From assembly GCA_022784065.1 (NCBI GenBank), contig JALFUO010000024.1:1-33337 (forward strand): a DNA stretch of 33,337 bases, written 5' to 3'. Position 1 is the stretch's first letter, and each line of letters starts with the position of its first letter. This DNA is from Bacteroidales bacterium. GTDB taxonomy: Bacteria; Bacteroidota; Bacteroidia; Bacteroidales; Bacteroidaceae. The notes beneath the pieces were generated by a model, which searched no databases, had not been told where the DNA came from, and saw only the letters and a list, made by a program, of their open reading frames with translations. Below, one piece after another: positions 18,093 through 22,123 of the stretch. Made by a program: the position numbers and the translations under genes.

Positions 18093-18947
18093 ATGTCTAA
18101 GATAGATTTAGCATCTCGAGAATGGTGCGACCTCGTCTTCGAGGGACGTAACAGAGAGTACGGAGCTTATCGTGCACGCGCCAACAAAGGCAAGTTCCAG
18201 CTCAGAGCACTTATCTTTGTGCTTATCCTCATCGCTGCGATTATTGCCTTCCTTATTGCAAAGAATGCAGTAGAGGCCGCTATCGAAAAGAACCGCGCAC
18301 TTGACGGTGAACAAGTCACCGAACTTTCGCAGCTCAAGAAAGATGAGCCTAAGAAAGAAGAGAAGAAAAAAGAGCCTGAACTCAAATACGAAGAGCCCAA
18401 GCAGGAGAAGGTCAAGGTGAAAGCCTCTATCGAGTTCACCGTGCCTAAAATCGTCGACGACGACAAGGTTGACCACTCCAAGGAACTCAAAACGCAGGAT
18501 GAAGTTACCAAGAGCAGCTTCGCCATTGCATCGCAAGACTATGCTGGCGATGGTGAGGGCGGTATCAACATCGACGACTTGAAGGACAACCAGACCGCAG
18601 GCGGCACCAGCACGCCTAAGGAAGAAGAAGTTGTGGACAACGCCCTCGTGGAGGTGCAAGCCTCTTACCCCGGCGGCGAAGCAGCCCTTATCGCCTTCAT
18701 CAGTAAGAACCTTGTCTATCCGCAAATCGCTGTAGAACAAGACTTGCAGGGCACGGTTATCCTTCGTTTCCGCGTAAATGCCGATGGCTCCGTGGGCGAC
18801 ATTATCGTGAAGAAGAGCCTTTCTCGCGAATGCGACCAAGCCGCAGCCGACGTTGTGAAGAAGCTCAAGCGCTTCATTCCCGCTAAGCAGCAGGGTCATC
18901 CCGTGCCCGTTTGGTTCACGCTTCCTATCCGCTTCCAGCTTCAGTAA
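18093..18947 (+). CDS. tonB: TonB family energy transducer
   Basis: This 284-residue protein carries the Bacteroidetes-type N-terminus DLVFEGRNREYGAYRAR, one membrane helix at about 39-57, a Lys/Glu/Pro-rich spanning region (82-110) and a C-terminal TonB domain from about 190 with LQGTVILRFRVNADGSVGDI and PVPVWFTLPIRF. It transmits the proton-motive force from ExbBD to outer-membrane SusC/TonB-dependent receptors. It is last in the ExbB/D cluster and is followed by a terminator. Confidence 0.95.
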   Translation: MSKIDLASREWCDLVFEGRNREYGAYRARANKGKFQLRALIFVLILIAAIIAFLIAKNAVEAAIEKNRALDGEQVTELSQLKKDEPKKEEKKKEPELKYEEPKQEKVKVKASIEFTVPKIVDDDKVDHSKELKTQDEVTKSSFAIASQDYAGDGEGGINIDDLKDNQTAGGTSTPKEEEVVDNALVEVQASYPGGEAALIAFISKNLVYPQIAVEQDLQGTVILRFRVNADGSVGDIIVKKSLSRECDQAAADVVKKLKRFIPAKQQGHPVPVWFTLPIRFQLQ

Positions 18948-18982
18948 GATTTAGTTGAAGTTTTGAAGTAAATCTCTATATT

Positions 18983-19035
18983 CGGCAGATTAGCAAGCCT
19001 GTTGTTTTAACCGGCCCACTAATCTGCCGTTTTTT
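18983..19035 (+). terminator. Terminator of the exbB-tonB operon
   Basis: CGGCAGATTAG (18983-18993) pairs with CTAATCTGCCG (19019-19029), a perfect 11-bp stem, directly followed by six T. It separates tonB from the PstS-like gene. Confidence 0.85.
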
Positions 19036-19070
19036 GTAGGGGCGTATTATATATATTGTGTATGGCGTTA

Positions 19071-19270
19071 TATAGGTGGGTTCTATAAATTCGCTTTGGC
19101 AGATTTTGGATTTATTTTCGCGGATAAATTGTAAGTTGAAGAGGGAGCGTAGCGTGCTACGTGACCGATGAGACTTACGATTTAGACCGAAAAGAAAGCA
19201 AAAGATGACAAAACGTCAACCCAACATTATTGTAAATTTTTACGGTGGGAATTTATAGAACCCACCTATA
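19071..19270 (+). mobile_element. 200-bp MITE-like element, copy 1
   Basis: The ends are perfect 22-bp inverted repeats beginning TATAGGTGGG and ending CCCACCTATA; a TA target duplication is possible. Copy 2 at 20404-20603 has the same length, with 6 differences in 200. Internal stems are CGTAGC/GCTACG and ATAAATTGTAAGT with its near-complement downstream. An ATG at 19205 opens a 17-codon ORF, MTKRQPNIIVNFYGGNL, ending in TAG at 19258 within the right arm. No transposase is present. The element ends 33 nt before the ATG of the PstS-like gene, in the same orientation as copy 2 relative to its gene. Confidence 0.8.
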
Positions 19271-19303
19271 CATTATCGCTCCCCAATCTAAAACTCATCG
19301 ATT

Positions 19304-20257
19304 ATGAAAAAGCACCTCCTTTTTCTCTTTTCTCTCGCTGCCGCCGCATTTATAGCCAGTTGCAGCAGCGACAAGAAAGCCAGCAACAACTGGCTTGCCG
19401 AAGACGACGTGAACGTGGCCTTCGACGAAACCTTTCGGCCCATTATGCAGGAAGAGGTCGAAACCTTTGCCATGATGCATCCCGAAGCAGGCATGAAGCC
19501 CGTATATTGCAGCGAAGACTCCGCCCTGCGCCTCCTGCTTGCAGATAGCTTGCGTTGCTGCGTCATCACGCGCAAGCTCCTGCCCAATGAACTCGACATC
19601 ATCAAAGCCCACACCCTCGGAGCCAAGCAGGCACTTGTTGCCACTGATGCCGTGGCGCTCATCGTTAATAAAAACAACCCCGACTCACTTATCACCCTCG
19701 ACGAAATCAAGCAAATCGTCACTGGTAAGATTACCCGCTGGGAACAGCTCGAAAAGTCGAGCAAGAAAGGTACGCTCAGCCTCGTCTTCGACCATTCAGG
19801 TTCAAGTACCGTGCGATTTATGAAAGACAGCCTTTGCGCCGGACGCGACATAACCGGTAATGTCTTTGCTTCCGAAAACGGCACCAATCGTTCCGTCATC
19901 GAAATGGTGCAGCAAAATCCCGACATCATCGGCGTAGTAGGCACGAATTGGCTGAAAGAGGGCGTTGACAGCGTGCTTACCTCATTTAAGAAACTCCCCG
20001 TGAGCGTTATGAAAGTCAGCCGCAAGAGCGGCACCGATGCTTTCTACGTGCGCCCCTTCCAATATTATATAGCCACGGCGGACTATCCTCTCTTGCGCTC
20101 CGTTTATATCATCAACACCGACCCGCGCACGCAGTCCTTCGTCAAGCAGTTCTATTTCTTCCTGAAAGGCCAGAAAGGGCAGACCATCATCTGCAACAAC
20201 TCCCAGCTTCTGCCCATTACGCCTGTTCAAGTTAAGGCGGTGCGCACGGTTGATTAA
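19304..20257 (+). CDS. PstS-like substrate-binding lipoprotein
   Basis: This 317-residue periplasmic-binding-protein-like protein has a signal peptide with lipobox IASC (lipid-anchored C20). The PstS/PBP-like fold is suggested by ALVATDAVALIVNKNNPDSL, TLDEIKQIVTGKITRWEQ and the ligand-loop-like FDHSGSSTVRFM. PstS proteins bind phosphate. However, no pstCAB genes are near, so the ligand and role are open. The location after tonB and before a TPR gene suggests a role linked to that envelope cluster. It is flanked on both sides by copies of the same 200-bp element. Confidence 0.85.
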   Translation: MKKHLLFLFSLAAAAFIASCSSDKKASNNWLAEDDVNVAFDETFRPIMQEEVETFAMMHPEAGMKPVYCSEDSALRLLLADSLRCCVITRKLLPNELDIIKAHTLGAKQALVATDAVALIVNKNNPDSLITLDEIKQIVTGKITRWEQLEKSSKKGTLSLVFDHSGSSTVRFMKDSLCAGRDITGNVFASENGTNRSVIEMVQQNPDIIGVVGTNWLKEGVDSVLTSFKKLPVSVMKVSRKSGTDAFYVRPFQYYIATADYPLLRSVYIINTDPRTQSFVKQFYFFLKGQKGQTIICNNSQLLPITPVQVKAVRTVD

Positions 20258-20310
20258 GGCTTTCTCGCGCTTTTTTCCCATTCTCTTACGTGAAAATGTA
20301 GAATATTTCT

Positions 20311-20318
20311 TATTTTTG
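20311..20318 (+). promoter_or_regulatory. Possible -7 box upstream of the TPR gene
   Basis: TATTTTTG matches TAnnTTTG. There is no good -33 match at the right distance. If it is used, the whole second 200-bp element lies in the mRNA leader of the TPR gene. Confidence 0.35.
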
Positions 20319-20403
20319 CAAGCAGTATCCGCGTTTTCACGGCAGAGTAGGCAATAATCCGACCGCCGCTCGCGTTATAAATATTGATAAAGCAGACACT
20401 AAA

Positions 20404-20603
20404 TATAGGTGGGTTCTATAAATTCGCTTTGGCAGATTTTGGATTTATTTTCGAGGATAAATTGTAAGTTGAAGAGGGAGCGTAGCGGGCTACGTGACCG
20501 ATGAGACTTACGATTTATACCGAAAAGAAAACAAAAGATGACAAAACGTCAACCCAACATTATTGTGAATTTCTACGGTGGGAATTTATAGAACCCACCT
20601 ATA
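20404..20603 (+). mobile_element. 200-bp MITE-like element, copy 2
   Basis: It has the same length, orientation and perfect 22-bp ends as copy 1, with 97% identity. The 17-codon ORF is at 20538-20591 and encodes the identical peptide; the two nucleotide differences inside it are synonymous. The stem loop CGTAGC-gg-GCTACG differs from copy 1 only in its loop. The element ends 26 nt before the TPR-gene ATG. The two copies bracket the PstS-like gene as direct repeats. Confidence 0.8.
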
Positions 20604-20629
20604 ATCAACCAAATACAAAAATCTTTCTT

Positions 20630-22123
20630 ATGAAGAAAAACCTTTTACGCAGTGTTGCCCTTTCCGCCCTTTTGCTCGTTGGAATAGGTGCACCCAAGGC
20701 GCAGGCGCAGACCTCTTACGAGGTTCCGCCCCTCAACCCCGAGTATCAGACAATGGCCGACCAAATCAATGAGCTTAACCTCGATGATCCCGAAGCCGCA
20801 AACAAAGTGTTCTCTAAGCTCATCAGGAAGATTAGCAAGAGCAAGGAAGACCTCGTTAGCGTGGGCACATATTTCCTGCAAAACAATAACTATCCCGCTG
20901 CCAACCAGTGCGCCACGAAACTCTACGACCTCTCTGCCGAGTATGTCCCTGGACTTATGTTTATGGGCGAGGTGTGCATGAAGCGCAAGGATTGGGGCGG
21001 CGCAGGTCAGAAGTTTGACGAAGTGCTGCTTATCGACTCCACCTACGTGCCCGCTATTAAGCGTAACGCCTTTGTTTATAAAAACGTGAACCCCCACGTT
21101 GCTATCGAAATGCTTGAACGCATCAAGCGCCTTGAACCAGAGAACTACGAAGCCGACAAGGACCTTGGCGATATCGCATACAAGCAGGAACAATACAAGA
21201 CTGCTGTCGGTCACTACGATGCTTATTACAGCCGCGTGCCCAAAGACACGACCGTTATCGACATTCGCTCTTGCGAAAACTATCTCATGTCGCTCTATTC
21301 GACCACTAAGTTCGAAAAGGTGGCCCAGCTCGCAGCCGAAATGCTGCCCCTTGCTCCGAACGATATGATGTTTAAGCGTATGCGCTTCTTCGCCGACATT
21401 GAGAACTATGAACTCGATGCAGCGGCTGAGCACATGGCTTATATCAATAATAAAGAATACGAAGACAGCCTGTACCTCTATCTTGACTACGCTTACGCTG
21501 CTCAGTATCACAACCTCAACAACGACCCCGCCACAGCTATTGAGTGCTACAAGAAAGCACTTGAAGTTGACCCCACAAAGGCACAGGGCTACAAAGAACT
21601 TTCTACCCTCTACGGCCAGAACAAGCAGGCTGAGCTCGGACTTGAAGCCTATAAGAAGTATCTTGAACTCATTGGCGATAAGGCAGAACTTAGCGACCGC
21701 TTCCTCCTCGGCGTTCAGTACATGAAGGTTTATCAGGAAGAAGGCACCGACCCCGAAAAGAAGCAGCAGTTCTTCCAGGATGCCGACAGAATCTTTGCCG
21801 AAGTCATGGAGCAGAAGCCCGACTACGTAACCGCCATTATCTATCGTGCCCGCCTCAATAACACCGACCCCACGAAGATCAACGAAGACGTGAAGAACCT
21901 TTACGTCAAGGTGCTCGAAGTTTCTGCCGACCGCCCCGATGAAACCATGCGCGAACGTTTCGAGGCATCTCGTTACCTTTTCTTCTATGCTGTGAACGTT
22001 GAGCCCAACGATATGGAACTTGCCGGGCGTGCCTACGAGATTGCCAAGAGCATCGCTCCCGAAGATAAGTTTGTGCAGAATGCCGGTCGCTTCATGGAAA
22101 TAAGCAAGGCAGAGCAGAAGTAA
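20630..22123 (+). CDS. Secreted tetratricopeptide repeat protein
   Basis: This 497-residue protein begins with a signal peptide (MKKNLLRSVALSALLLVGIG, likely cleavage after AQA near 25). The mature part is helical with TPR-like units, for example around ATAIECYKKALEVDPTKAQGYKELS and GLEAYKKYLELIGDKAEL. TPR proteins are protein-protein adaptors; the partner is unknown. ATG 20630 is used. The frame is open upstream through the 200-bp element, but that part would not encode a signal peptide. It follows the PstS-like gene, and a strong terminator ends the unit. Confidence 0.9.
   Translation: MKKNLLRSVALSALLLVGIGAPKAQAQTSYEVPPLNPEYQTMADQINELNLDDPEAANKVFSKLIRKISKSKEDLVSVGTYFLQNNNYPAANQCATKLYDLSAEYVPGLMFMGEVCMKRKDWGGAGQKFDEVLLIDSTYVPAIKRNAFVYKNVNPHVAIEMLERIKRLEPENYEADKDLGDIAYKQEQYKTAVGHYDAYYSRVPKDTTVIDIRSCENYLMSLYSTTKFEKVAQLAAEMLPLAPNDMMFKRMRFFADIENYELDAAAEHMAYINNKEYEDSLYLYLDYAYAAQYHNLNNDPATAIECYKKALEVDPTKAQGYKELSTLYGQNKQAELGLEAYKKYLELIGDKAELSDRFLLGVQYMKVYQEEGTDPEKKQQFFQDADRIFAEVMEQKPDYVTAIIYRARLNNTDPTKINEDVKNLYVKVLEVSADRPDETMRERFEASRYLFFYAVNVEPNDMELAGRAYEIAKSIAPEDKFVQNAGRFMEISKAEQK

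Follow-up and report, generated by a model that had tools for sequence, protein, structure and literature searches.

The MITEs of Porphyromonas gingivalis (BrickBuilt, MITE239, MITE464/PgRS and MITE700) are, in the parts of that account drawn on here, linked to IS5-family ends (PMC4596501). NEMIS-type MITEs of Neisseria lie adjacent to genes and, according to the sections of the source used here, are in general transcribed and folding and alter mRNA stability (PMC3733652).

The elements considered here lie in a window of 33,337 nucleotides (the whole stretch of DNA that was analysed) from a member of the Bacteroidales. As the earlier note had described, the repeats at 19071-19270 and 20404-20603 have the same length, orientation and ends and differ at 6 of 200 positions (51, 85, 115, 128, 164 and 170), and the 22-nt inverted ends of both are perfect. 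Each 22-bp arm is made up of an 18-bp inverted repeat and a TATA target duplication. The outer TATA is read as a 4-bp duplication because other copies carry TAGA, TAAA, TTCA or TTAA in its place; the element proper is therefore 192 bp long with 18-bp inverted ends (Table 1). The copies alternate with three + strand genes in the order TonB_C, copy 1, PBP_like_2, copy 2, TPR, the genes being named for the families that they match. In agreement with the earlier note, no transposase was seen in or between the two copies. When folded as RNA and compared with dinucleotide shuffles, the whole of copy 1 gave z = -11.3, and its other strand -10.2. Directly 3' of the TonB gene and upstream of copy 1 is an inverted repeat followed by a T-run (18983-19029), a likely terminator.

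Table 1. Features of the two element copies, in positions of the window.
Feature	Position	Strand	Basis or remark
MITE copy 1	19075..19266	+	192 bp between outer ends of inverted repeats
MITE copy 2	20408..20599	+	192 bp
TATA target duplication, left, copy 1	19071..19074	.	read from sequence
TATA target duplication, right, copy 1	19267..19270	.	read from sequence
TATA target duplication, left, copy 2	20404..20407	.	
TATA target duplication, right, copy 2	20600..20603	.	
Conserved stem-loop, copy 1	19119..19188	+	covariance model R1, 72.4 bits
Conserved stem-loop, copy 2	20452..20521	+	covariance model R1, 78.9 bits
26-nt hairpin core, copy 1	19141..19166	+	pattern match; 0 matches in 100 shuffles
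26-nt hairpin core, copy 2	20474..20499	+	pattern match
17-codon ORF, copy 1 (held probably fortuitous)	19205..19258	+	coordinates read by eye
17-codon ORF, copy 2 (held probably fortuitous)	20538..20591	+	coordinates read by eye

The draft assembly of the source genome (103 contigs) yielded 51 match rows, 4 of which are the window's own ends. Grouped by hand, these rows represent about 39 places, many of them interrupted by contig ends; as one genome holds this number of places, chance can be ruled out for the element. Matches were found in 15 of 58 genomes of the genus, the source genome included. A congener (G044) contains 378 terminal inverted repeat (TIR) halves with at most 1 mismatch, corresponding to about 190 elements, and the type strain of Prevotellamassilia timonensis holds about 50 copies. 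In the 2.7 Mb of G044 (loci L149-L168) this amounts to roughly one copy per 14 kb, and DDE_Tnp_1 was not found there. Elements delimited by end pairs fall mostly into the length class of 188-194 bp (58/80; pairs enclosing another end were skipped, and copy 1 of the window is thus absent from this set). Of 77 copies, 47 have a perfect 4-bp direct repeat at their borders, whereas shuffled flanks produced 7.8 on average and at most 17. In 29 of the 47 the repeat is non-palindromic and hence does not merely prolong the inverted repeat. For other TIR types a TA duplication was seen in 10 of 12 rows, which, being palindromic, is inseparable from the element end. An automatic search found inverted ends (at most 3 mismatches in 18) around 38 of 47 hairpins and none around the other 9, although this search ran without a control and some of its boundaries are plainly off. 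Several of its rows show TNA duplications, likewise without a control and with a scoring that rewards duplications. Direct repeats of 2, 3 and 4 bp are thus all seen across element types, and the transposase was not found. The IS5 subgroups make duplications of 2-4 bp and have G-rich ends. Short, bounded by inverted ends, transposase-less, present in many copies and flanked by a target site duplication, the elements are a non-autonomous DNA transposon (MITE).

An autonomous partner was sought among loci with a transposase, among wide pairs of ends and in viral contigs. The family search covered DDE_Tnp_1 (PF01609) and returned 34 rows; these come from 7 of the 11 genomes searched, G044, G053, G050 and G031 having none. 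At none of the 30 loci checked did DDE_Tnp_1 lie inside a pair of element ends, although at L072 a 79-bp pair is found about 1 kb from the transposase. The block common to seven DDE_Tnp_1 loci of P. timonensis starts with a different sequence. Wide end pairs of 1353 bp (L140) and 2860 bp (L167), both without matching flanks, and of 994 bp (L330) were encountered. Across all loci there were 26 inward-facing pairs 700-2800 bp apart; in 24 both ends had a nearer partner and in 2 one end did, so that a permissive test (up to 6 mismatches) left none of the 26 free. Seven of these 26 were picked for matching flanks or a missing partner, and their longest frames held no transposase family: 3 are host-type (AAA-ATPase_like with PDDEXK_9, Aldo_ket_red and Exonuc_VII_L) and 4 were unmatched. 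TIR scans of viral contigs (four) gave 18 matches, all single. An autonomous partner bearing the element ends was therefore not found among the places listed, at the DDE_Tnp_1 loci, in the wide pairs or in the viral contigs. The window element had no matches in plasmids or phages, two other elements were unmatched in plasmids and one of them in phages too, and the core pattern was absent from the viral contigs searched.

Some copies depart from the usual layout. Long variants in the source genome (L058 1069-1401, L059, L060, L061 and L065) enclose other G+C-rich palindromic repeats, which contain CCTCCTTCGCGCCTCGGC or GTAGGGGCGTTCTGCAGAACGCCC, and the G044 elements L103 and L155 have a similar palindromic insert at a different place in the element. 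It seems that hairpin repeats of a second family insert into those of the first, and the long variants are taken for the same element carrying palindromic inserts at different places in G000 and in G044; they would not be an ancestral longer form. In elements of P. timonensis (L319 1501-1683 is one example) the last 9 nt at the right end are repeated in the same orientation about 30 nt inward; judging from this repeat, such an element may offer a transposase two sites at its right end and one at its left.

The best conserved stretch across divergent elements, GAGGGAGCGTAGCGNGCTACGTGACC, lies at the tip of a stem. The arms of this stem differ between lineages yet remain complementary, and the core is present in elements with different ends. 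Tandem GA/GA (G.A-A.G) 2x2 motifs break up the stem around the 26-nt core. In a gap-free alignment of 27 diversity-picked sequences, 89.4% of the cells of the 22-pair stem are paired and 17 of the 22 pairs have changed on both sides. Double-change cells number 138, compared with 51.2 +/- 5.7 after shuffling, and covariation is 0.572 compared with 0.186. Related sequences can exceed shuffles without any structure; with a slid partner, a control which keeps relatedness, covariation reached at most 0.209 and double-change cells at most 58. The covariance model found 54 hits in 57 loci, giving 39 distinct rows outside the seed. Here the double-change cells were 212 versus 60.7 and covariation 0.693 versus 0.233, in an alignment fitted to the model and hence biased towards it. 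Compensatory changes reach the core itself, where CGTAG/CTACG becomes CATAG/CTATG and an outer G-C pair becomes A-T. Judged from these alignments the hairpin is not fortuitous, and the "RNA-like stems" that the earlier note saw in a MITE are borne out by a central hairpin that covaries and recurs across the order. Searches of Rfam gave 3 matches up to E = 10 for window positions 18900-20800, none overlapping the element, and 8 matches up to E = 1 for six further loci, none at the gathering score; the sole weak overlap with an element is V_AS5 in L319 (23.4 of 96 bits). A transcription terminator was rejected as the identity of the hairpin, since the window sequence has no T-run 3' of it. No published account of the hairpin was found in a literature search that covered mostly titles and abstracts and few full texts, and core 10-mers looked up in printed sequences turned up in 139 papers, of which the 20 entries listed are all unrelated by title.

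The ends of a MITE are expected to be its best conserved part because they are what the transposase reads. Among 10 element types, TIR identity averages 0.60 when the best offset out of seven is taken; shuffled ends give 0.43, and the ends may therefore be distantly related. Core identity averages 0.91 and exceeds TIR identity in 44 of 45 pairs, a comparison which favours the core in that it was the core or the model that led to these types. Within G044, 60 copies located by TIR alone (alignments of at least 165 columns) vary from consensus by 1.3% in the core stem, 3.8% in the loop, 4.4% in the arms, 3.3% in the rest and 3.2% in the ends. Core position 26, which is C or T and pairs with G either way, varies by 18.3% and was excluded from the stem count. 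Of 89 windows of the same length placed elsewhere than on the core, 9 vary as little in this genome as the core stem does; a first pass over 23 copies gave no clear difference between core and rest. Selection in place on the core within one genome is thus possible from these alignments.

The range of the hairpin was searched with a core pattern and with the covariance model. Order-wide, the pattern search recovered 1 of 393 genomes, namely the source genome, and within its family 18 of 301 genomes and 8 of 30 genera. The covariance model, whose E-values are rough, was positive in 15 of 393 Bacteroidales genomes, representing 13 of 207 genera and 10 families by the tool's labels, and phylum-wide in 2 of 395 genomes, both of the source family. 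Ten of the 15 have more than one match, with all 12 candidates positive in five, while the remaining five have a single match. These figures are lower bounds because 12 candidates were scored per genome under strict filters.

The stem is markedly asymmetric between strands. On the + strand, arm mismatches are G.A rather than C.T in 51 versus 3 cases among 29 representatives, and in 104 versus 8 among 69. For 37 order-wide hits (the 54 model hits after near-duplicates had been removed by hand) the + strand folds better than the other in 37/37 and the 2x2 loops are GA/GA in 58/79, with the caveat that RNA energies favour tandem G.A and that the model was trained on the + strand. By analogy with known RNA structures, the tandem G.A would be sheared pairs. 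A palindrome kept as DNA only would be expected to show no such preference for one strand. Elements of Muribaculaceae Isolate-013 have two convergent hairpins at 4 of 4 loci (L178, L184, L197 and L224), and each strand therefore carries one. At L178 (5867-6190) the two facing hairpins lie within one end pair with TGA flanks. A different arrangement is found at L352 (1501-1828, genome G265), with three closely spaced hairpin matches in the same orientation.

With these data in mind, we lean towards a Bacteroidales MITE superfamily with a selected stem-loop, most likely working as RNA. Such a MITE would depend for its movement on a transposase supplied in trans, one that this analysis did not find, and would insert at A+T-rich sites, leaving a 4-bp duplication. 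The superfamily, seen here only in Bacteroidales, would be old, its TIRs and duplication lengths having diverged while the central stem-loop was kept, and selection on the stem-loop would act on just one of the two strands, folded by itself. The element lies between genes and would be read through in transcripts, and its hairpin may favour spread or tolerance, for example by host-factor binding, transcript protection or insulation.

Nevertheless, a folded strand of one polarity could also be DNA. The hairpin might be exposed as single-stranded DNA during movement and be bound or cut by the transposase or a host protein, RNA being uninvolved. Precedents are the REP hairpins with their RAYTs and the folded attC sites with the integron integrase, attC sites acting through just one of their strands once it is folded. 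This reading agrees equally well with the strand asymmetry and the covariation, and as DNA too the + strand is the better folded (-11.2 versus -7.3 kcal/mol for the other strand). The arms hold 34 G.U versus 26 A.C, or 81 versus 46 in the larger count; as both nucleic acids fold and G.U exceeds A.C only modestly, the polarity accommodates RNA and single-stranded DNA alike. The retention of the core in multiplying lineages with different ends, and the slight orientation bias relative to genes (below), also suit a role in movement. However, the inverted ends and exact duplications point to double-strand cut and paste, which needs no internal hairpin, and a dedicated transposase was not seen in the search for DDE_Tnp_1. 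We regard this explanation as unlikely, though a serious contender, and retain selection for a folded RNA as the preferred reading.

Further down the scale, and in our view distinctly improbable, is a functionless MITE born as a near-palindrome, with hairpin and covariation as by-products of that birth and of shared descent. The folded elements are indeed near-complete foldbacks, and the windows in G044 that vary as little as the core are in keeping with it. A DNA palindrome, however, leaves the one-strand G.A mismatches (51 versus 3) unexplained and is hard to square with them. It likewise gives no reason for a G.U pair retained in 27 of 27 sequences, and in 38 of 39 in another set, nor does it account for the fact that, in nearly all pairs of types, conservation is higher in the core than in the TIRs. 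The earlier note had proposed that frequent frameshifts in the short reading frame together with a lack of covariation in the stems would mark a plain MITE; the frameshifts did appear, whereas the lack of covariation did not.

Those frameshifts concern an ORF for MTKRQPNIIVNFYGGNL, which is present in both window copies as first reported, with its TAG stop within the right arm, and which differs between them by two synonymous changes only. That the element "keeps" this frame does not hold up. Whole copies in the source genome number 23 (32 rows less 2 spurious ones and 7 cut by contig ends); the full 17 codons survive in 14, among which 3 carry a single residue change, while in the other 9 the frame is altered, being shifted in 8 and encoding other residues in 1. 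Among 32 distinct ATG-context segments from relatives, 12 stop at codon 5 and further ones are frameshifted or changed, although the CALZJQ genome has a 16-codon variant in 10 of 11 segments. The ORF lies mostly within the right-end spacer, which is variable between subfamilies, and subfamilies with other interiors are without its sequence. The conserved reading frame of a coding leader peptide is thus not seen, and the 17-codon ORF is, on these comparisons, probably fortuitous. A function of the peptide is rejected because of the altered frames and early stops, despite the frames that stay open in the source genome and in CALZJQ.

The orientation of neighbouring genes was also considered. Both window copies are in sense orientation a short distance upstream of genes. 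In a set of 140 distinct copies, with those less than 600 bp from a locus end and flank repeats dropped, 134 are intergenic: both neighbours are sense in 51, both antisense in 34, divergent in 26 and convergent in 18, and 5 lack one neighbour. By assignment, 83 of these 140 contexts come from one genome. In other genomes order-wide, 41 copies (44 of the 54 model hits were used, 41 remaining after flank-repeat removal) comprise 14 sense, 8 antisense, 8 divergent and 9 convergent, with 2 inside ORFs. Contexts in both sets were taken from a simple longest-ORF caller. The two sets sum to 65 sense, 42 antisense, 34 divergent and 27 convergent, so that the "mobile regulatory leader" put forward earlier finds no support in this near-random gene orientation. 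The weak sense bias speaks against an orientation-dependent leader, whereas an RNA that is simply tolerated would be compatible with it. A mobile leader with a translated 17-codon peptide, for which the frame kept in 14 of 23 source copies, the synonymous changes and the placement of the window copies might be cited, is scarcely credible: already contradicted by sequence, it meets altered frames in 9 of 23 copies, codon-5 stops in 12 of 32 segments of relatives, nearly unbiased orientation and a frame largely in a spacer that differs between subfamilies.

What sets the family apart is that, across several lineages, an internal, strand-specific stem-loop is better conserved than the ends, contrary to what is expected of a MITE. 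Selection of a bacterial mobile repeat for the structure of its nucleic acid can thus be put to the test, and one gut bacterium with about 190 copies and Prevotellamassilia timonensis with about 50 provide the material. A bolder proposal, possible but somewhat doubtful, is that these elements represent a new Bacteroidales-specific class of transposon-borne structured RNA, in which a stacked tandem G.A stem-loop, borne by MITEs of one superfamily whose ends have diverged, would be selected as a folded RNA and recognised by a host factor, and the transposon would be the vehicle for the RNA and not the other way round.

Compared with known systems, the elements resemble the Porphyromonas gingivalis MITEs, as far as the relevant parts of that account extend, both being transposase-less Bacteroidales repeats with inverted ends (PMC4596501). 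However, the terminal repeats given there, among them GAGACCTTTGCA, ACGTGAGTTCGA and GAGACTGTTGCA, differ from the present ends, and the P. gingivalis MITEs are described as having long stem-loops and, internally, tandem repeats of 23 nt and 41 nt rather than the present hairpin, a separation made by description (PMC4596501). GTAG REPs with RAYTs resemble the elements as high-copy palindromic repeats, which in the sections of the source used here have a tag at one end and are transposase-linked (PMC3733652). REPs are 20-40 bp long, whereas the present element is 192 bp with TIRs, target duplications and a hairpin in the middle, and is not a 20-40 bp hairpin tagged at one end. The Neisseria NEMIS-type MITEs, as described in part of that source, are similar in being MITEs beside genes (PMC3733652). 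An internal core conserved across an order is not known to us from NEMIS-type MITEs, a contrast drawn by description. The likeness to attC sites lies in a folded strand of one polarity, from which the present elements, compared by description only, differ by their TIRs and target duplications. Taken together, this is an ordinary MITE in its mobility with an unusual cargo, a strand-specific covarying stem-loop that has outlasted the ends.
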